Assembly (NCBI RefSeq): GCF_000384315.1
Contig: NZ_ARVW01000001.1
Span: 6,448,157 to 6,512,156 of the forward strand
Length of the DNA: 64,000 nucleotides
From: Amycolatopsis nigrescens CSC17Ta-90
GTDB taxonomy: Bacteria; Actinomycetota; Actinomycetes; Mycobacteriales; Pseudonocardiaceae
Direction: 5' to 3'
The position numbers were made by a program, and so were the translations under genes. Positions 6,457-52,284 of this stretch are shown here, piece after piece (the first letter of the stretch is position 1; every line of letters starts with the position of its first letter). The notes beneath the pieces were generated by a model, which had not been told where the DNA came from, searched no databases, and worked only from the letters and a program-made list of their open reading frames with translations.

Positions 6457-6486
6457 GGCTTTACCCGGCTTTACAGGGCTTTACAG
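6457..6486. repeat. three tandem 10-bp direct repeats upstream of ligC
   Basis: GGCTTTAC occurs at 6457, 6467 and 6477, an exact 10-bp period. The array spans the stop codon of the acetyltransferase gene and ends 36 bp before the ligC start. One-helical-turn spacing is typical of operators, but no binding protein can be named. Confidence 0.5.
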
Positions 6487-7002
6487 GGGCAGCTCGCGCT
6501 CGAACACGAGCTCCAGGCCGTCCTCTTCGTCGATCTGCTCACCGACCCGACGGAAGCCGAGCGATTCGATCAGCGCCCGCGACGCCAGGTTCTCCGGACT
6601 GGTGGCGGCGACCGCGATCCTGGCCGCCCCGGTGCGGAACGCCCAGTCCTCCAGCGCGACCACCGCCTCCCGCGCGTAGCCGCGGCGGCGGTGCTCCGGC
6701 AGGATTTCGTAGCCGACCTCAACACTGGCCCGCTCGTCCGGCGGGGCGTGGAAGCCGATCATGCCGACCAGCGTGCGCGGCTCCCGCAGCACGATCGCCC
6801 GCGCCAGCCACGGCAGCTCGGCCGGATCGGCGGCCAGCTGGGCCAGCCGCCGCTGCGCCGGGACGGTGCACGGCCAGTGCTCCGGCACCGCCGTGCCCAG
6901 CGCGGAGCCGAGCCCGGCGAGGTCGGCGTCCCTGGTCAGCCGGAGCAGCTCCGGGGTGAGCGGTACCAGGTCGAGCCGATCGGATTCGATCACGAAGGTC
7001 AC
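6481..7002 (-). CDS. GNAT family N-acetyltransferase
   Basis: A 173-residue GNAT-fold protein of the RimJ/RimL-like subgroup (Acetyltransf_3). The N-terminal strand IESDRLDLVPLTPELL and the acetyl-CoA loop HRRRGYAREAVVAL (consensus RxxGxA) are clear, followed by ATSPENLASRALIESLGF, the usual helix after the CoA site. It acetylates an amine on a small molecule or a protein N-terminus; the acceptor is unknown. It is upstream of ligC on the same strand with a 59-bp gap that holds the 10-bp repeat array. No link to the siderophore operon 17 kb away is indicated. Confidence 0.88.
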   Translation of the reverse strand: MTFVIESDRLDLVPLTPELLRLTRDADLAGLGSALGTAVPEHWPCTVPAQRRLAQLAADPAELPWLARAIVLREPRTLVGMIGFHAPPDERASVEVGYEILPEHRRRGYAREAVVALEDWAFRTGAARIAVAATSPENLASRALIESLGFRRVGEQIDEEDGLELVFERELPL

Positions 7003-23493: not shown

Positions 23494-23512
23494 TGAGGGT
23501 AGGCATACCTAA
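23494..23512 (+). promoter_or_regulatory. iron box (DmdR/IdeR-type) of the siderophore operon
   Basis: TGAGGGTAGGCATACCTAA matches the 19-bp DtxR/IdeR/DmdR consensus TTAGGTTAGGCTAACCTAA at 15 of 19 positions, with the central AGG...CCT symmetry kept. It runs into the AAGGAG ribosome site (23511-23516) and ends 9 nt before the GTG start. The site predicts repression by an iron-loaded DtxR-family regulator. Confidence 0.75.
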
Positions 23513-23521
23513 GGAGCTTGA

Positions 23522-25036
23522 GTGGGTGAGTCAAGGCCCGAAGTGCCGCTGGCGGGTGGGGAGCACGGTCATCAACGGCTGGCGGAGCTGATTCCGTTGG
23601 CCCTCAACGGTTTGGCCGAGGGTACGGCGGAACGCGGCGGTGCTGCCCCGGCCGGCGGGCCGGCCACGGTCGCCGCGAGCGTGGCCGCCGCGATGACCGA
23701 CGAACTGCCTCCGTTACTGCCGGTTCGGGGAGTTGGCGCGGAACGCGCGCTGGTCGAGCTGAGCAGGTTGCTCGCCGCCGGTTCGGTGGATCCGGCCGAT
23801 CCCTGGTGCGCCGCGCATCTGCACTGCCCGCCGCTGGCGCTGGCGGTGGCCGCGGACGTGGTGGCCAGCGCGCTCAACCCGTCGATGGACTCCTGGGACC
23901 AGGCGCCGGTGGCCAGTGAGCTGGAACGGGAGTTCTGCGGCGCTTTTGCCCGGCTGTGCTACCCGGAGGCGGAGTCGCCGGACGCGGTGGTGACCACCGG
24001 TGGCACCGAATCCAATCTGCTCGGCCTGTTGCTCGCGCGGGAGGCGCATCCGGAACACGTCGTCCGCCCGGTGTGCGGGCGCACCGCGCACCACAGCGTG
24101 GCCAGGGCCGCGTGGCTGCTCGGGCTGCCCGCGCCGCTGGTGGTGGACTGCCCTGGGGACCGGCTGGCGCCGGCTGCGCTGGCGGACGCACTGCGGACGC
24201 TGACCGGGCCTGCCGTGGTGGTGGCGACCGCGGGCACCACGAACACCGGGGAGATCGATCCGCTGCGGGCGGTCGCCGAGGTGTGCCGCGACTTCGGCGC
24301 CCAGCTGCACGTGGACGCCGCGTACGGCGGCATGGCCCTGTGCAGCGACGAGCTCAGCCCGTTGCTCGACGGTCTCGACCTCGCCGACTCGGTGGCGCTG
24401 GACATGCACAAGTTCGGCTGGCAGCCGATCTCGGCCGGCCTGCTGGCCACCGGCGACGCGCGGCGGCTGGGCGCGCTGACCGTGCGCGCCGAGTACCTCA
24501 ACGCCGACGACGACACCGAGGCCGGACTGCCGGATCTGCTCGGCCGTTCCATCCGGACCTCGCGAAGGCCGGACGCCTTCCGGATGGCGGTGACCACACG
24601 AGCGCTCGGCACGGCCGGGATCGGTGAGCTGGTGCTGCGCTGCTGCCGCACGGCCGCCGAGGTCGCGGAGTCCATCGCGGAGCATCCCCGGTTGCGGCTC
24701 TGGGGCCGACCGGCGCTGTCCACGGTGCTGTTCCGGCCGTCGGTCGCGGACCGGCTGTCCGCGCCGATGGCGGACGCGCTGATCGCGCGGGTGCGCCGGA
24801 CGCTGCTGGAGTCCGGCGCCGCGGTGATCGGCAGGGCCACCATGCCGGGCGGACCGGACGACAGGGATGACAGGGATGACACGGACGAGCTTTGGCTCAA
24901 GCTGACCCTGCTCAACCCGAACGCCGGTGCCGCCGACTACACGGGGCTGCTGCGGCTGGTGGCGGAGACCGCCGACGCCGAGCTCGCGGTGCTCTCCTCG
25001 GCCGGCGTGGACCCGGAGAGCGTAGAGGTCCTGTGA
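23522..25036 (+). CDS. PLP-dependent decarboxylase of siderophore biosynthesis (DesA/DABA decarboxylase type)
   Basis: A 504-residue group II PLP decarboxylase. TGGTESN (159-165), HVDAAYGG (263-270) and the PLP lysine K297 in DMHKFGWQP are all present. In hydroxamate siderophore operons such enzymes (DesA type) decarboxylate lysine or ornithine to cadaverine or putrescine; relatives act on 2,4-diaminobutyrate, and the sequence alone does not separate these. The GTG at 23522 is set by AAGGAG five bases upstream. It is the first gene of a four-gene operon with 4-nt overlaps under an iron box. The Met in DMHK, where most relatives have Pro, is a mild deviation. Confidence 0.88.
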   Translation: MGESRPEVPLAGGEHGHQRLAELIPLALNGLAEGTAERGGAAPAGGPATVAASVAAAMTDELPPLLPVRGVGAERALVELSRLLAAGSVDPADPWCAAHLHCPPLALAVAADVVASALNPSMDSWDQAPVASELEREFCGAFARLCYPEAESPDAVVTTGGTESNLLGLLLAREAHPEHVVRPVCGRTAHHSVARAAWLLGLPAPLVVDCPGDRLAPAALADALRTLTGPAVVVATAGTTNTGEIDPLRAVAEVCRDFGAQLHVDAAYGGMALCSDELSPLLDGLDLADSVALDMHKFGWQPISAGLLATGDARRLGALTVRAEYLNADDDTEAGLPDLLGRSIRTSRRPDAFRMAVTTRALGTAGIGELVLRCCRTAAEVAESIAEHPRLRLWGRPALSTVLFRPSVADRLSAPMADALIARVRRTLLESGAAVIGRATMPGGPDDRDDRDDTDELWLKLTLLNPNAGAADYTGLLRLVAETADAELAVLSSAGVDPESVEVL

Positions 25037-26334
25037 AGCCTCTCGATCTCGCCGGCGTCGGCATCGGGCCGTTCAACCTGTCGCTGGCCGCGCTGGCAGA
25101 GCCGGTGTCCGGGCTGGACGTCGCACTGTTCGACCGGCGCCCGGAGTTCCGCTGGCATCCCGGGCTGCTGATCGAGGGCACCACGCTGCAGGTGCCCTTC
25201 CTGGCCGATCTGGTCACCCTGGTCGACCCGACCAGCGAACTGTCCTTTTTGAACTATCTCCGGGACCGTGACCGGCTCTTCCCGTTCTACTTCGCGGAGC
25301 GCTTCCACATCCCGCGCGCGGAGTACGACGACTACGGCCGGTGGGCGAGCGACCGGCTGTCCAGCTGCGTGTTCGGCGCCGAGGTGACCGAGGTCGCCTG
25401 GGCGGCCGAGGAGAAGGCGTTCCGGCTGACCGTCGACGGCGCCGAACCGGTGCTGGCCCGCAACGTGGTGCTCGGCCTCGGCACCTCGCCGCAGGTGCCG
25501 GAACCGTTGCGGCACTGGGTGGACGACCCGGGCGCGCTGGTGCTGCACTCGGCGGACTACCTCACCGAGCGGGAGCGGCTGCTCGCGGCCGGCACGGTCA
25601 CCGTGGTCGGTTCCGGCCAGTCCGGCGCCGAGGTCTTCCTCGACCTGCTGCGCCGGCGCCCGACTTCGCGCGGCCTGCGCTGGCTGGCCAGGACCAGGGC
25701 GATCGCGCCGATGGAGTACTCGAAACTGGGGCTCGAACAGTTCACCCCGGACTACACCACGTTCTTCCACGGCCTGCCGGAGCCGGTCCGCGACCGGATG
25801 CTGCCCACGCAGTGGCAGCTGTACAAGGGGATCGGCGCGGAGACCATCGAAGCCATCCACGACGAGCTCTACCTGCGCAGCGTCGGCGGCGGCTGGCCCG
25901 AGGTCACCGTCATGCCGGGGGTCGAGGTGGTGTCGGCCGAACGGGACGCCGACGGCTTCGCGCTCGGGCTGCGACACGGCGAGCAGGGTCGGAGCGCGAC
26001 CGTGCGCACCGACGCGGTGGTCGCGGCGACCGGTTACGCGGAGACCTCGACCGGACGACTGCTCGGGCCGCTGGCCGGACGGCTCGGTACCGACGGCGGC
26101 GGCAGGCCGGTGGTGAGCCGCGACTACCGGCTGGAGCTGCCGCCGGAGATCACCGGTTCGGTGTTCGTGCAGAACGCGGAACGGCACACGCACGGTGTCG
26201 GCGCCCCCGACCTCGGCCTCGCCGCCTGGCGGGCGGCGTCCATCATCAACTCGGTCTGCGGGCGTCAGGTCTACCGGCTGCCGGAACGCACCGCTTTCAC
26301 TAGATTTGGACTCCCCGACACGGAGGCGCTGTGA
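25033..26334 (+). CDS. diamine/L-lysine/L-ornithine N-monooxygenase (SidA/IucD/PvdA family)
   Basis: A 433-residue flavin N-hydroxylase. The FAD motif GVGIGPFN is at residues 8-15, the NADPH motif VVGSGQSGAE lies mid-protein, and the family signature ATGY follows in VVAATGYAET. These enzymes hydroxylate the terminal amine of lysine, ornithine or the derived diamine, using NADPH and O2, to give the hydroxylamine later acylated into a hydroxamate. Directly after the decarboxylase (GTGA overlap) it most resembles DesB in arrangement, suggesting N-hydroxycadaverine or N-hydroxyputrescine. The C-terminus is complete and overlaps the NIS synthetase start. Confidence 0.92.
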   Translation: MKPLDLAGVGIGPFNLSLAALAEPVSGLDVALFDRRPEFRWHPGLLIEGTTLQVPFLADLVTLVDPTSELSFLNYLRDRDRLFPFYFAERFHIPRAEYDDYGRWASDRLSSCVFGAEVTEVAWAAEEKAFRLTVDGAEPVLARNVVLGLGTSPQVPEPLRHWVDDPGALVLHSADYLTERERLLAAGTVTVVGSGQSGAEVFLDLLRRRPTSRGLRWLARTRAIAPMEYSKLGLEQFTPDYTTFFHGLPEPVRDRMLPTQWQLYKGIGAETIEAIHDELYLRSVGGGWPEVTVMPGVEVVSAERDADGFALGLRHGEQGRSATVRTDAVVAATGYAETSTGRLLGPLAGRLGTDGGGRPVVSRDYRLELPPEITGSVFVQNAERHTHGVGAPDLGLAAWRAASIINSVCGRQVYRLPERTAFTRFGLPDTEAL

Positions 26335-28142
26335 ATATGCAGGACGACCTGCCCGAGCAGGAGACCGCGTGGCGCGACGCGGGCGCGTTGATCGTGCACA
26401 AGATGCTCGGCGAACTCTGCTACGAAGGGCTGCTCGAACCGGGACCGGTCGAGCCGGAGGGCACTGGGCACCGGCTGTGGCGGCTCGACCTGCCCGGCGG
26501 GGTGCGCTACGAGTTCCGGGCCCGCCGCGGTGCGTTCGACTCGCTCGCGGTCGCGCCCGGCACCGCCACCAGGCAGCAGGGCGACGCAGCGCCGGCGCCC
26601 GCGGAGGATCCCCGCATGTTGGTGGTGGACGCGCGCGCCACCCTCGGCCTGACCGGGCTCAGGCTGGCCGACGTGCTTGCCGAGCTCACCGCGACGGTGG
26701 CGAACGAAGCGGCCAGGCTGCGTCGGGCGCCCAGCGCGGAAAAGCTGTCCACAATGGACTACGACCTGGCGGACGGGCACCTGACCGGGCATCCGAGGCT
26801 GGTGCTGAACAAGGGCAGGATCGGCTTCTCCGCCGCCGACCGCGAGGCATACGCCCCCGAGTCCGGCGCGGACATCGTGCTGAACTGGTTCGCGGTGCAT
26901 CGCGAGCTCGCCGAGTTCCGGTGCGTGGAGGAGCTCAGCGAGCAGGTGCTGCTGCACGAGGAGCTGGACGCCGCGCAGCGGGCCGAGTTCACCGAGCGGA
27001 TCGCCGAGGTGGGCGACCCGGCGGACTACCACTGGGTGCCGGTGCATCCGTGGCAGGCGGACGAGATCATCGGCACGCTGTACGCGGCCGAGCTGAGTAC
27101 CGGTGCGCTGATCGACCTCGGCCAGGGACACGACCACTACCGTCCACATCAGACGGTGCGGACGCTGGCGAACGTGGGCCGTCCGGATCGCCGCGACGTG
27201 AAAACCGCCCTGTCGGTGCGCAACACACTGGTCTACCGCGGCCTGAACTCGGCGGCCACGCTGGCAGGGCCGGCCATCACCAGCTGGCTGCGGCGGCTGA
27301 GCGACGCGGATCCGTTGCTGGCCAAGGAGTACCGGTTCGGACTGCTCGGCGAGGTGGCCAGCGTCTCGGTCCGGCACCCGTTGTTCGGCGCGCTGGAGGA
27401 GCTGCCCTACCGGTTCCACGAGACCCTCGGCGCGCTGTGGCGCGAACCGCTGCGGGCCAGGGTCGGCGAGGACGAGCAGGCGCTTTCGTTCGCCGCGCTG
27501 CCCTACCGCGACACCGAGGGCGTCTCGGTGCTCGCCGAGCTGGTCAACCGCTCCGGCTGGTCCGCCGAGCAGTGGTGCGCGAAGGTGTTCGACCTGCTGC
27601 TCACCCCGCTGCTGCAGTGGCTGCTGAACTACGGGGTGGGGTTCTGCCCGCACGGCCAGAACCTGATCCTGATCGTGGACCCCGAAGGCAGGCCGCTGCG
27701 GGTGCTGATCAAGGACTTCGCGCAGGGCGTCGACCTGCTGGACGAGGACCTGGAGTGCTACAAGTCGCTGGACCCCGACGCGGCGGGGGAGATGCTGCGC
27801 TGGCCGGCGCACCTGCTGGCGCAGTCCCTGTTCAGCTCGGTGTTCTCCGGTCAGCTGCGGTTCTGGGCGGAGATCATGGCCGACGACCTCGGCCTGCCCC
27901 GGCCGCGGTTCTGGGAGCTGGTCCGCGAGGTGGTCACCCGGTTCCGCGAGCGCAATCCCGCCCTGGCCGACCGGTTCGACGCCTGCCGGCTCTTCGCGCC
28001 CGAGGTCGAGCGCGTCACGCTGAACCGGGAACACCTGGCGGGCAAGGGTTTCGACAAGGTGGAGCGGGACGACGAGTTCGACGTGCGCTGGGGCAGGGTG
28101 CCCAACCCGCTGCACGCGCCGGATCCGGCCGGCGCGTGGTGA
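26331..28142 (+). CDS. IucA/IucC family NRPS-independent siderophore synthetase
   Basis: A 603-residue NIS synthetase, about the size of DesD. Recognisable features are HPWQADEI, the ATP-site block VRHPLFGALEELPYRFHE, and the catalytic segment CPHGQNLILIVD followed by IKDFAQGVDL. It condenses carboxylates with amine or hydroxylamine groups using ATP, and in DesD-like enzymes it oligomerises and cyclises hydroxamate units. No fused acyltransferase is present. The GTG at 26331 overlaps the previous stop as GTGA, with GGAGG at 26322-26326; ATG 26337 is the alternative. The gene carries a GTCCACAATGGAC repeat variant at 26747-26759. Confidence 0.92.
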   Translation: MNMQDDLPEQETAWRDAGALIVHKMLGELCYEGLLEPGPVEPEGTGHRLWRLDLPGGVRYEFRARRGAFDSLAVAPGTATRQQGDAAPAPAEDPRMLVVDARATLGLTGLRLADVLAELTATVANEAARLRRAPSAEKLSTMDYDLADGHLTGHPRLVLNKGRIGFSAADREAYAPESGADIVLNWFAVHRELAEFRCVEELSEQVLLHEELDAAQRAEFTERIAEVGDPADYHWVPVHPWQADEIIGTLYAAELSTGALIDLGQGHDHYRPHQTVRTLANVGRPDRRDVKTALSVRNTLVYRGLNSAATLAGPAITSWLRRLSDADPLLAKEYRFGLLGEVASVSVRHPLFGALEELPYRFHETLGALWREPLRARVGEDEQALSFAALPYRDTEGVSVLAELVNRSGWSAEQWCAKVFDLLLTPLLQWLLNYGVGFCPHGQNLILIVDPEGRPLRVLIKDFAQGVDLLDEDLECYKSLDPDAAGEMLRWPAHLLAQSLFSSVFSGQLRFWAEIMADDLGLPRPRFWELVREVVTRFRERNPALADRFDACRLFAPEVERVTLNREHLAGKGFDKVERDDEFDVRWGRVPNPLHAPDPAGAW

Positions 28143-29503
28143 ACGGTGCCCGTCCGCTCGGTCCGCGCACCCTGGCCGCCCGCGCGGAGGCGGCCCGCGC
28201 CGCCGAACCGGCGCTGCGCGAGGCTTTGGCCGCCGGTGCGGTCACCGGGCTGAGCCTGCTGGTGCCCGACCCGCACGGCCGGTTCGCGGCGGTGGACCTG
28301 GACGGCCGGTTCGTCGCCGAGGAGGTGCTCGACGGCGGGTACGGGCTGTGCTCGTACGTGTTCGCGTGGACCCTCGAACGGGACGCGCTGCCCATTGACG
28401 CGGACGGCGAACTCGCCGCCTACCTAGGCGGTTACGGCGACCTGAGGATGCGGCCCGACCTGGCCACGCTGACTCCGCTGAGCGCGCTGCCCGGTGACGA
28501 GCGGGCGATGGCGGTGGTCTGCGACGTCGAGTGGCCGAGCGGCGCGCCGGTGCTCGCCGCGCCGCGTACCGTGCTCGCCGGGCAGCTGGCCGCACTGGAG
28601 CGGATCGGCCTTGTGCCGTCGGCCGGGATCGAGCACGAGGTCACTTTCCTTGACGTGGAAGGAAATCCGCTCACCGCGCACGGGGTCGACTACGCGGTGG
28701 GCGGCACCGAGCGGATGACCCCGGTGCTGCGCACCGTCCGTGCCGCGCTGGCGCGTGCCGGGCTCGGCGTGGAGTCGGCGCGCGCGGAATGCCATCCCGG
28801 CCAGTACGAGATCGTGCTGCGTCACCGGGACGCGCTGGCGGCCTGTGACGACGCCATGCTCCAGCAGTCGATCGTCCGTGCCGCGGCCGCCGAGCACGGG
28901 GTAACCGCGAGCTATCTGGCCGCACCGGCGCCGGGGCAGGGCAGTTCCTGCCACGTGCACCTCTCATTGTCCACTGTGGACGGTGAAGGTGCGTCCTCTG
29001 CCGGTGGCACCGGGCTTTCCGCGGTGCTGGGCTCTTTCCTGGCCGGGGTGCTGCGCGACGCGCGGGCGCTGACCGCGCTGTGGGCGCCCGGCTGGAACAG
29101 CTACGCGCGGCTGCGCGGCGCGCCGTTCTCCCCGCTGGTGCTGCGCTGGGGCGTGGACGACCGGACCGCGGCGGTGCGGGTGGCCGGGCAGGACCGTTCG
29201 TTGCGGCTCGAATTCCGCTTCGCCGGCGCCGACGCCCAGCCGCATCTGGTGGTCGCCGCGTTGCTCGCGGCCGGACGGGCCGGGATCGAGGACGAGCTGC
29301 CGCCGCCGGAACCCGGCCGGGAGACCGGCAGGCTGGCGAGCACACCGTGGGACGCGCTACAGGAGCTGACGTCCGGCCGGGTCGCCGAGCTGCTGGGCAC
29401 CGAAGTGGCCGCTCAGCAGACCGCTCTGCTGCGGGCGGAACTGGACGCGGGCTGCGACGCGGTCACGGAGTGGCAGCATCGGCGGGCAGCGTTGCGGGCG
29501 TGA
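28139..29503 (+). CDS. glutamine-synthetase-like ligase in the siderophore operon
   Basis: A 454-residue type I GS-family protein. The metal- and substrate-site motifs are all intact: EHE (165-167), AECHPGQYEI (E217, E224), HVH (272-274), WNSYARL, the RWG..DRTAAVRV ATP segment and LEFRF. The length and the loss of the strict GS signatures in the N-terminal beta-grasp part point to a gamma-glutamylamide or polyamine ligase rather than true glutamine synthetase. The GTG at 28139 overlaps the NIS synthetase stop by 4 nt, so it is translationally coupled to siderophore genes. I infer it attaches glutamate (or another carboxylate) to the hydroxylated diamine, or detoxifies excess diamine; known GS-like polyamine ligases support either. 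Confidence 0.85.
   Translation: MNGARPLGPRTLAARAEAARAAEPALREALAAGAVTGLSLLVPDPHGRFAAVDLDGRFVAEEVLDGGYGLCSYVFAWTLERDALPIDADGELAAYLGGYGDLRMRPDLATLTPLSALPGDERAMAVVCDVEWPSGAPVLAAPRTVLAGQLAALERIGLVPSAGIEHEVTFLDVEGNPLTAHGVDYAVGGTERMTPVLRTVRAALARAGLGVESARAECHPGQYEIVLRHRDALAACDDAMLQQSIVRAAAAEHGVTASYLAAPAPGQGSSCHVHLSLSTVDGEGASSAGGTGLSAVLGSFLAGVLRDARALTALWAPGWNSYARLRGAPFSPLVLRWGVDDRTAAVRVAGQDRSLRLEFRFAGADAQPHLVVAALLAAGRAGIEDELPPPEPGRETGRLASTPWDALQELTSGRVAELLGTEVAAQQTALLRAELDAGCDAVTEWQHRRAALRA
28969..28981. repeat. 13-bp palindrome GTCCAC-T-GTGGAC
   Basis: The second perfect copy in the window, inside the GS-like gene in the codons for LSTVDG. It differs from the copy at 1230 only in the central base. 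Confidence 0.6.
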
Positions 29504-49910: not shown

Positions 49911-49929
49911 TCAGGTAAGGCTAACCTGC
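49911..49929 (+). promoter_or_regulatory. iron box (DmdR/IdeR-type) before the AraC regulator
   Basis: TCAGGTAAGGCTAACCTGC matches the 19-bp DtxR/IdeR consensus at 15 of 19 positions, with the core AGGCTAACCT exact. It ends 6 nt before the GTG start, so the mRNA may be leaderless. It predicts iron repression of the regulator. Confidence 0.75.
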
Positions 49930-49935
49930 GAACTT

Positions 49936-50934
49936 GTGGTTCATCAGCTCGCCGGCGTGGCCGGTTCCACCGCGTTCGACGCGACGCAGGCGGCGTATTA
50001 CGCGACGATCGCCCAGTCCGACAAGAGCGGTGACGGCACCGTCCGGCACCGGCTCCGGCCGGAGGTCGGCGACGGCACGATCGAGGTGACGTCGTTGCGG
50101 AACGGGTTCCACATCGTCCGCTACGACGTCGCGTTCGCCGGAGGGCACCAGGTCGGGTACACCTTCCCGGGTGACCATTTCGAGCTGGAGCACTGCGTCG
50201 ACGGGCGCATGCACATCAGCGAGGCCGGCAGCACCGGCGGCTTGCACGCCGGCTCGGTGGCGTTGAGCCCCCGATGCGCGACCGACGGCGTCGTCGCGCA
50301 CGGCGACGGCGAGCGGTACCGGGCGGTGTCGATCACCGGGACCTGGACCGGACTGGAGTCCTACCTCACCGGTGTCGGTGCGGGCGCTCTCCCGGCCACC
50401 GGACCGGAGAACGTGGCACGCGAGCGGTATCTGGGCCGGTCCGCCGCGCTGCGCCCGGTGGCCGGTCCGCTGGCGGAGATTTTCATGCACCGGCATTCGT
50501 CCCCGGGGCGACTGCTGTTCCTGGAATCGCGGCTCGCCGCGGCGCTGGCCGCGCTGATCGACGGGCTCGCGGTCACCGCGCCGCCCGCGGACATCCGGGA
50601 GCTGGAAGACCACGAGGTGGCCGCATTGCACCGGGTGCCTGAACTGCTCTGGCGGGACCGCCACGCACCACCGTCGCTGGCCGAGCTGGCCCGCGCGTCG
50701 TCGATGTCGGTCCGGCGCCTCACCACCGGATTCCGCGCGCTGTACGGGACTTCTGTGCTGGAGCACCACCGACGGCGCTGCCTCGACCGCGCTGCGGCCC
50801 TGCTCGTCGAGACCGACTGGCCGGTAGCCCGGATAGGGCACGAGGTCGGCTACGCCTCGCCCAGCAATTTCGGTTACGCCTTCCGCCGCGACCGGGGCAC
50901 CACCCCCGCGCGGTTCAGGCGGGCCCACTCCTGA
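49936..50934 (+). CDS. AraC family transcriptional regulator (PchR-like)
   Basis: A 332-residue regulator with an N-terminal effector domain (about 1-235) and two HTH motifs at the C-terminus: LAELARASSMSVRRLTTGFRALYG and VARIGHEVGYASPSNFGYAFRRDRGTTPARFR. The N-terminal domain resembles the PchR/YbtA group, which activates siderophore genes in response to the ferric siderophore. Together with its iron box this suggests control of iron uptake or of the exporter gene that follows 129 bp downstream. There is no strong ribosome site for the GTG at 49936. Confidence 0.88.
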   Translation: MVHQLAGVAGSTAFDATQAAYYATIAQSDKSGDGTVRHRLRPEVGDGTIEVTSLRNGFHIVRYDVAFAGGHQVGYTFPGDHFELEHCVDGRMHISEAGSTGGLHAGSVALSPRCATDGVVAHGDGERYRAVSITGTWTGLESYLTGVGAGALPATGPENVARERYLGRSAALRPVAGPLAEIFMHRHSSPGRLLFLESRLAAALAALIDGLAVTAPPADIRELEDHEVAALHRVPELLWRDRHAPPSLAELARASSMSVRRLTTGFRALYGTSVLEHHRRRCLDRAAALLVETDWPVARIGHEVGYASPSNFGYAFRRDRGTTPARFRRAHS

Positions 50935-51063
50935 CCCCGACGGGGTAAGCGTCGCGCTCCACATCTTCGGGTCCGTCGCTCCACACCGCCGCACGGCCCC
51001 GGTGCCGACGATGTGGTGACCGGCGGTCGCACCGGCCGTAGGGACATCCTCGGATGGAGGCCG

Positions 51064-52284
51064 ATGAACGTCAGCGTCAACTTCGGGCCCGCTCGGACCG
51101 GAACCGGGCGGCTCATGATCGTCCTCGCCGGGCTCTCCGCGGTTTCGCCGTTCGCCACCGACATGTACGCGCCCGGCTTCCCGCAGATCGTCACCTCGTT
51201 CGGCACCTCGAAAACGGCCGTCCAGTTCTCCCTGACGGCCTGCCTCCTCGGCCTCGCCATCGGTCAGCTCGCGCTCGGCCCGGTCAGCGACGCGATGGGG
51301 CGGCGGCGTCTGCTCCTGGCCGGTTCCGGCATGTTCACCGTGTTCTCCTCGGTCTGCGCGCTCGCCCCGTCCGTCGCCGTGTTCGACGTCGGCCGGCTGC
51401 TGCAGGGGATCGCCGGCGGCGCGGGGCTCGTGATCGGGCGGGCGGTGATCAGCGACCGGTTCACCGGCACCCACGCGGCTCGCCGGTTCGCGACGCTGAG
51501 CGTGATCGCGATGACCGCGCCGGTTCTGGCGCCGGTCGTCGGAGGGCTCATCCTCGGCGTCGGCTCGTGGCGGCTGGTGTTCGCGGCGCTGGCCGCGACC
51601 GGGCTGCTGTTGACGATCGCGGTCTGGGCATGGGTGCCCGAATCGCTGCCCGCCGAGCGGCGCCGGACCGGCGGCCTGCGGGCCGCGTTCACCACGATGG
51701 GCGGCCTGCTCCGGCGCCGCGAACTGGTCGGCTACCTCCTCGTCATGGGTTGCGCGCTGGCCGCCCTGTTCGCCTACATCAGCGGCTCGCCCTTCGTCTT
51801 CCAGAACGTCTACGGCTTGTCGCCCACCGGATACAGCCTCGTCTTCGCCACGAACGCCGTCGGCACGGTGGTGACCGGCGTGCTGTTCGGACGGCTGGCC
51901 GGGCGGGTAGGCCTCAGCGCACTGCTCGTCGTCGGCGTCGTCATCACCGCGGCCGCCACGATCACCCTGGTGACCCTGCTCGCCATCGGTGTCAGCACGC
52001 TCCCGGCCACCTGGGCCTGCCTGTTCGGCCTGACCTCCGGGTTCGGCATCGTGCTGCCCGCGTCGACCACCATCGTGCTCGCCGTCGGTCGCGATTCCCC
52101 CGGCGCCGCTTCCGGCCTGCTCGGCGGCGCCCAGTTCGTGCTCGGCGCCGCGGCCGCACCGCTACCCGGAATTCTGGGCAGCACCACCGCAATGTCGATG
52201 TCCGTCGTGGTGCTGGGCTTCGTCCTCTTCTCGGCGGTAGCGCTGTGCACCCTCGCTCGGCCGTGGCATGGGCCGCGTTCGTGA
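51064..52284 (+). CDS. Bcr/CflA family MFS exporter
   Basis: A 406-residue twelve-helix MFS protein. The N-terminal SPFATDMYAPGFPQIVTSF and LGPVSDAMGRRRLLLAG (motif A) are typical of the Bcr/CflA drug-resistance group. GGAGG lies five bases before the ATG at 51064. It follows the iron-boxed AraC gene in the same direction, so it may be controlled by it and export a siderophore; that is inference, because Bcr/CflA proteins also export drugs such as bicyclomycin and chloramphenicol. It stands alone downstream. Confidence 0.88.
   Translation: MNVSVNFGPARTGTGRLMIVLAGLSAVSPFATDMYAPGFPQIVTSFGTSKTAVQFSLTACLLGLAIGQLALGPVSDAMGRRRLLLAGSGMFTVFSSVCALAPSVAVFDVGRLLQGIAGGAGLVIGRAVISDRFTGTHAARRFATLSVIAMTAPVLAPVVGGLILGVGSWRLVFAALAATGLLLTIAVWAWVPESLPAERRRTGGLRAAFTTMGGLLRRRELVGYLLVMGCALAALFAYISGSPFVFQNVYGLSPTGYSLVFATNAVGTVVTGVLFGRLAGRVGLSALLVVGVVITAAATITLVTLLAIGVSTLPATWACLFGLTSGFGIVLPASTTIVLAVGRDSPGAASGLLGGAQFVLGAAAAPLPGILGSTTAMSMSVVVLGFVLFSAVALCTLARPWHGPRS

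Follow-up and report, generated by a model that had tools for sequence, protein, structure and literature searches.

How could a hydroxamate siderophore be assembled by an operon that carries a glutamine synthetase (GS)-like gene and no acyltransferase gene? This question is raised by a locus of Amycolatopsis nigrescens CSC17Ta-90, which we analyzed within a window of 64,000 nucleotides (C1:6448157-6512156, the whole stretch of DNA under study) of the single-contig genome of 9.11 Mb. Positions 23494-29503 of the window comprise an iron box and four open reading frames (ORFs) on the + strand, and consecutive ORFs share four nucleotides (GTGA) at every junction. They encode a pyridoxal phosphate (PLP)-dependent decarboxylase, an amine N-monooxygenase, a nonribosomal peptide synthetase-independent siderophore (NIS) synthetase and a GS-family ligase:

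23494..23512, + strand: IdeR/DmdR-like iron box directly upstream of the decarboxylase gene, whose AAGGAG ribosome site begins within the box; 15/19 match
23522..25036, + strand: PLP-dependent decarboxylase, probably an L-2,4-diaminobutyrate (DABA) decarboxylase; PF00282 (Pyridoxal_deC), 135.6 bits
25033..26334, + strand: flavin amine N-monooxygenase; PF13434 (Lys_Orn_oxgnase), 361.7 bits
26331..28142, + strand: NIS siderophore synthetase, type C-like; PF04183 (IucA_IucC), 239.4 bits (cut-off 25), and PF06276 (FhuF), 105 bits
28139..29503, + strand: GS-family ligase of 454 aa, proposed N-hydroxy-diamine gamma-glutamyl ligase; PF00120 (Gln-synt_C), 201.5 bits

All four proteins exceed the curated Pfam cut-offs, and all stay below those of NCBIfam. 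The overlapping genes, their families and the box had been described in an earlier note on this DNA, and the ORFs, the Pfam matches and the 15/19 score of the box bear out this description. Decarboxylase and monooxygenase share one operon with a PF04183 synthetase, which is the gene content of an NIS siderophore operon, and we regard the four-gene set as almost certainly being one. The GS-like ligase probably performs the step of the missing acyltransferase; because it stands in the place of that enzyme, the product may carry glutamate and may be a new kind of siderophore.

Ligase and acyltransferase genes in NIS loci

The survey of other genomes suggested in the earlier note was run as a contig scan, and all 41 loci that it gave, from five genera (Amycolatopsis, Streptomyces, Nocardia, Actinokineospora and Actinophytocola), have the order decarboxylase, monooxygenase, NIS synthetase, GS. 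In the genus set the ligase is found at E <= 1e-80 in 48 of 80 genomes and is absent from 32, and an NIS gene adjoins it in all 30 congeneric loci that were read (our own included). Among 397 order-level genomes, 19 carry the NIS synthetase with at least 67% identity, and the ligase gene lies beside it in 19/19 (coordinates compared by eye). Only one of 396 genomes sampled across the phylum contains the ligase at E <= 1e-100, namely its own, which makes this GS clade rare at this depth of sampling. A second, distant group links GS and NIS genes in ten loci (L125-L131, L137, L138, L141), with NIS proteins 41-48% and GS proteins 37-42% identical to those of the window. Decarboxylase and monooxygenase genes are present in eight of these ten loci (L126 and L127 start at contig starts), and a type A-like NIS (27-28%) in six. 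A protein search with one GS of the second group returned Blastococcus, Geodermatophilus, Kineococcus and Nocardioides among the best matches, and a protein named GlnA4 at 58% lower down. One locus of this group, L128 (2656-6143), has two tandem type C-like NIS genes and a GS-like gene and no type A NIS.

The acyltransferase was searched by tblastn with the GNAT of L140 (PF13523, 155.6 bits), a query that more divergent acyltransferases would escape. It matched in none of 52 GS-linked sequences (the 41 loci, the ten loci of the second group and the window), but in 15 of 20 GS-free NIS loci (L136, L139, L140 itself, L143, L144, L160-L169); GS was found in none of these 20. Fisher's test gives p = 1.7e-11 for 0/51 against 15/20 (window left out); this value is purely descriptive, since the rows share ancestry and were in part selected. 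When 25 genomes were searched with PF13523, again no match lay beside the NIS gene in any of the 15 GS-linked genomes. As far as sequence comparison goes, GS and a DesC/RhbD-type acyltransferase are mutually exclusive in the loci compared. The negative tblastn result for the window agrees with the earlier note, which had seen no NIS-type acyltransferase there; the ORF that it had called an unrelated GNAT (6481-7002) is on the - strand, outside the family-library scan.

An acyltransferase with its gene elsewhere, or else the NIS synthetase, could instead attach the hydroxamate acyl group; the ligase would then tailor the compound by glutamylating a primary amine, either in a building block or in the siderophore. 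This explanation is favored by five GS-free loci (L132-L135, L142): these two-NIS clusters have neither GS nor an adjacent GNAT, yet strong PF13523 genes (141-158 bits) are present elsewhere in their genomes; moreover, the nearest function-named GS relatives (GlnA4) act on primary amines. The genome of the window, however, has only three weak PF13523 matches, none of them near the operon, the best with 25.9 bits (38.6 with neighbours), and no iron box was found within about 1.5 kb of these three places (best 11/19). We also scanned 20 of the 52 ORFs picked beside the 15 iron-box places of the genome for protein families and found no acyltransferase family among them. The co-regulated DesC-type acyltransferase considered in the earlier note was therefore rejected as a candidate, for the three PF13523 places and the 20 scanned neighbours. 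In view of these results and of the exclusion of GS and GNAT in the loci compared, we judge tailoring to be rather unlikely. In L132-L135 and L142, the acylation step is not explained by the cluster itself.

Active site and relatives of the ligase

GS residues are numbered as in mature E. coli GlnA and were counted in 136 rows, which include 119 database rows taken regardless of NIS linkage and count the window protein twice (itself and P0001); its own paralog L121, a long branch, was left out. E129, E131, E207, E212, E220, G265, H271, S273, R321, R339, R344, R355, E357 and R359 are kept in 136/136 rows and H269 in 135/136. We take E131, G265 and R321 to be the residues that hold the alpha-amino and alpha-carboxyl groups of glutamate in GS. 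The motif residues quoted for the window protein in the earlier note (E165, E167, E217, E224, H272 and H274) are right. At the ammonium site, E327 is replaced by F in all 136 rows, Y179 mostly by V and D50 mostly by P, S or A, and N264 is aligned to a gap; the window protein has P85, E91, V183 and F330 at the positions of D50, S53, Y179 and E327. The metal, ATP and glutamate residues of GS are present, whereas the ammonium site of a glutamine synthetase (EC 6.3.1.2) is not. Its site predicts that the window ligase glutamylates an amine or hydroxylamine and is not a GS. Substitutions at the ammonium-binding site are reported for GlnA2 and GlnA3 (PMC8998196), and NpaA1-like enzymes are described as being without the glutamate flap and Asp50 (PMC11335346). 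The structure model (pLDDT 83.3, pTM 0.89) has a predicted GS fold and resembles GS, NpaA1 and GmaS entries of the PDB with TM values of 0.80-0.83. Named GS relatives among the best 120 matches are mostly from Amycolatopsis and up to 72% identical; Amycolatopsis mediterranei (P0080) is one of the species with a homologue.

The residue pattern also bears on the acid, as the ligase might activate another carboxylate, such as succinate or citrate, and give a conventional succinyl or citryl product. The acid is not fixed by the NIS synthetase or by the missing acyltransferase, but the three presumed glutamate-holding residues are invariant in 136/136 rows, and we consider another carboxylate improbable.

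The GlnA4-like gamma-glutamylethanolamide synthetases as well as GlnA2, GlnA3, PuuA and NpaA1 share with the window ligase the GS fold, the retained ATP, metal and glutamate residues and the replaced ammonium-site residues; unlike them, the window ligase forms part of a separate NIS-linked clade, and its gene lies in a siderophore operon with an iron box and not in an amine-catabolic setting. The likeness to these enzymes raises the question whether it detoxifies or stores a polyamine, as a gamma-glutamylpolyamine or gamma-glutamylethanolamide synthetase would, and has nothing but the operon in common with the siderophore genes; polyamine detoxification had already been named in the earlier note. 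The profile search proposed there does give gamma-glutamylputrescine synthetase (PuuA, NF045547) as the closest curated model, but with 189.9 of 650 bits it stays far below the cut-off. In the GS tree (46 rows), where the ligase is sister to the GlnA4-like clade, the window's own group of 17 rows is supported by 100/100 and sits on a long stem (1.23). The ligase is NIS-linked in all 41 loci and lies under an iron box, and no PuuB/C/D-like gene was found at E <= 1e-5 in the 41 loci or the window. Strict linkage, iron box and the lack of such genes weaken the detoxification alternative, to which we give little credence.

In the same tree the second group adjoins the generic GlnA4-like clade, and its members stay together in no more than 20% of bootstrap trees. 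The F at the E327 position is common to the second group (10) and the generic GlnA4-like clade (14).

The NIS synthetase and the supply of the amine

In PDB comparisons the NIS synthetase is close to NcdF (9nom), AlcC (297 bits), DesD (247-277 bits) and IucC (262 bits), in contrast to 36 bits for IucA and 25 bits for AcsD; it is the only PF04183 gene product of the genome. In an NIS tree of 42 rows, from which type A was excluded, the window's group (100/100, 11 rows) and the second GS-linked group (97/94, 10 rows) are joined at 85/80. A GS-free group from two-NIS clusters is supported by 100/97 (9 rows plus the second NIS of L128), and a separate group with GNAT matches (100/100, 11 rows) is called DesD-like here from its adjacent GNAT, a reference DesD being absent from the tree. 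The NIS tree suggests a single origin of the NIS-GS partnership, and the GS tree does not settle the matter.

The earlier note had set the operon beside those for desferrioxamine. Both have a decarboxylase, a monooxygenase and a type C NIS, and an ordinary desferrioxamine operon with its acyltransferase elsewhere could be imagined, as the decarboxylase and the monooxygenase resemble enzymes of that pathway and the NIS synthetase reaches the DesD scores given above. But the operon is without DesC and has the GS ligase added, the genome has no strong PF13523 gene, and the NIS synthetase is not part of the DesD-like clade (100/100), in which a GNAT match accompanies 11/11 loci, and has type C NIS from two-NIS clusters as its neighbours in the tree. 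Desferrioxamine-type is therefore the wrong comparison, and an ordinary operon of this kind is very improbable. The proposal that a GS-like ligase with an intact glutamate site stands in the acyltransferase's place is upheld by the exclusion and the residues; its desferrioxamine frame falls with the NIS tree.

A better comparison is offered by the schizokinen, rhizobactin 1021 (rhb) and Haloferax iuc systems, which likewise have a DABA decarboxylase-like enzyme, a diamine N-monooxygenase and a type C NIS. For Haloferax schizokinen, PMC7407949 proposes a route from DABA to 1,3-diaminopropane, followed by N-hydroxylation, acetylation and two NIS steps. Relatives of the window operon share with the schizokinen and rhb clusters a DABA transaminase and a type A NIS; the window operon itself differs from them in having no RhbD-type acetyltransferase and a GS-family ligase instead, and one NIS rather than type A plus type C.

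The best NCBIfam model for the decarboxylase is the RhbB DABA decarboxylase (NF052646), with 259.2 bits against a cut-off of 900, so that formal membership is not reached; the decarboxylases of three relatives score 276, 309 and 362 bits against it. The closest PDB entries are 5o5c (188 bits) and 2qma (185 bits) for the decarboxylase and 6xbb (319 bits), 5o8p (288 bits) and 7us3 (putrescine N-hydroxylase, 275 bits) for the monooxygenase. A DABA transaminase gene adjoins three of the 41 loci (L055, L062, L063; TIGR00709, 499-512 bits, cut-off 401.6) and overlaps the decarboxylase start by 4 nt in all three, and a match is present in five of the ten second-group loci (L128, L131, L137, L138, L141), of which the scanned L131 protein is above the TIGR00709 cut-off. 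The window's own genome encodes EctA-EctB, which make and use DABA. Because DABA transaminases are linked to the loci, the amine is more likely to be 1,3-diaminopropane than cadaverine or putrescine, whose N-hydroxy forms the earlier note had proposed for an assay. Histamine, suggested by the name of TIGR04439, was set aside as less probable, as the match reaches 416.6 of 700 bits and DABA transaminases are linked. In a genus of the second group, an Orn/DAP/Arg-type (fold III) PLP decarboxylase gene adjoins the NIS-GS cluster (L131:235-1566, L137:8849-10189), besides the RhbB-like decarboxylase.

Proposed pathway

We favor an iron-repressed hydroxamate siderophore pathway that belongs to the schizokinen/aerobactin lineage and has a GS-family ligase as the replacement for the acyl-CoA N-acyltransferase. 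DABA would be provided by EctB of the ectoine genes, or by the operonic transaminase in some relatives; the decarboxylase would convert it to 1,3-diaminopropane and the monooxygenase would hydroxylate one amine. The ligase would then convert L-glutamate, at its gamma-carboxyl, to gamma-glutamyl phosphate and transfer the gamma-glutamyl group to the hydroxylamine nitrogen. Formation of gamma-glutamyl hydroxamate from hydroxylamine is a reaction of GS itself, and the ligase most likely makes it on N-hydroxy-1,3-diaminopropane. Finally, the type C NIS would adenylate a carboxyl, either that of citrate or the alpha-carboxyl of a further glutamyl unit, and couple it to the free amine, which may give a citrate bis-amide or an oligomer. 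Substrates, acylated nitrogen, acyl donor of the NIS step and product are what we infer from the gene set, and for the full chain we see even chances.

Several points weigh against this pathway. The kept and lost GS residues are common to the generic GlnA4-like clade and so give no pointer to hydroxylamine as such, and a common origin of the two NIS-linked GS groups is unsupported by the GS tree. The operon has a single NIS, whereas schizokinen-type pathways carry two. The decarboxylase is far below the RhbB cut-off and equally near to the desferrioxamine-pathway decarboxylase (188 bits) and the DABA enzyme (185 bits). Moreover, 5/20 GS-free NIS loci lack both GS and GNAT, so not every NIS locus needs an acylating gene next to it.

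It is possible, at slightly less than even chances, that these operons represent an actinomycete-wide class of NIS siderophores in which a GS-family ligase, instead of an acyl-CoA transferase, forms the iron-binding hydroxamate with free glutamate and ATP as substrates. The products would be gamma-glutamyl hydroxamates with free alpha-amino-acid groups; the two-NIS clusters of the second group would make citrate bis-amides, and Amycolatopsis and relatives a single-NIS, possibly self-oligomerised backbone. To our knowledge, the known NIS hydroxamates depend on acyl-CoA-dependent N-acylation (Des, Iuc and Rhb pathways). If the proposal is true, an ATP-dependent amino-acid ligase replacing N-acylation would be an additional route to hydroxamates, a GS-family enzyme would have a siderophore role, and glutamyl-bearing siderophores would be predicted in a genus known for antibiotics. 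No GS-like ligase in an NIS pathway was found among the matches listed for open-licence papers, which is no proof of novelty. Two known compounds were considered as the product and rejected: PMC6836290 describes fradiamine as two alkyl amines on citrate and does not mention glutamate in that description, and albisporachelin of Amycolatopsis albispora is, according to PMC6024995, an ornithine-hydroxamate/serine compound, although the window GS shares 64% identity with a protein that bears the name of A. albispora.

Predicted iron control and uptake genes

The iron box TGAGGGTAGGCATACCTAA at 23494-23512 agrees at 15/19 positions with TTAGGTTAGGCTAACCTAA, which we take to be the IdeR/DmdR consensus. 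In 10 Markov-simulated windows (+ strand scored) no site reached 14, the top score being 13. A site of at least 14 is present at 34 of the 41 homologous loci (between -500 and +120 bases relative to the estimated decarboxylase start), whereas controls score at most 12 (39 loci long enough for controls). The loci without such a site are L055, L062, L063, L067, L068, L070 and L071; in the first three a transaminase gene precedes the decarboxylase gene, so the box could sit further upstream. A genome scan with the consensus (<=3 mismatches) gave 21 matches at the 15 places, and the reversed pattern gave none. Several of these boxes adjoin SIP, FecCD and Peripla_BP_2 genes: among the 20 scanned neighbours are two SIP, three Peripla_BP_2, one FecCD, two ATP-binding cassette (ABC) ATPases, one ABC transporter with a membrane domain and one major facilitator superfamily (MFS) protein, the remainder being unrelated or unmatched (three of the 20 without family match at E <= 1e-8). 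The box marks a genuine regulon, by which iron control of the operon is predicted, and uptake genes are encoded away from the operon.

Genes for FecCD permeases, an ABC ATPase and a binding protein of the siderophore type flank the operon in loci from Nocardia and Streptomyces (L062:11362-14563, L063:564-1505, L064:523-1677); FecCD was recorded at four of the 41 loci, none of the four from Amycolatopsis. The window itself has a second iron-box-like site (15/19) at 49911-49929 (+), directly upstream of a gene for an AraC-type regulator (49936-50934, +; weak NCBIfam AraC matches). The ORF at 51013-52284 (+) reads like an MFS transporter and may form, together with this gene, an iron-linked pair of regulator and exporter.

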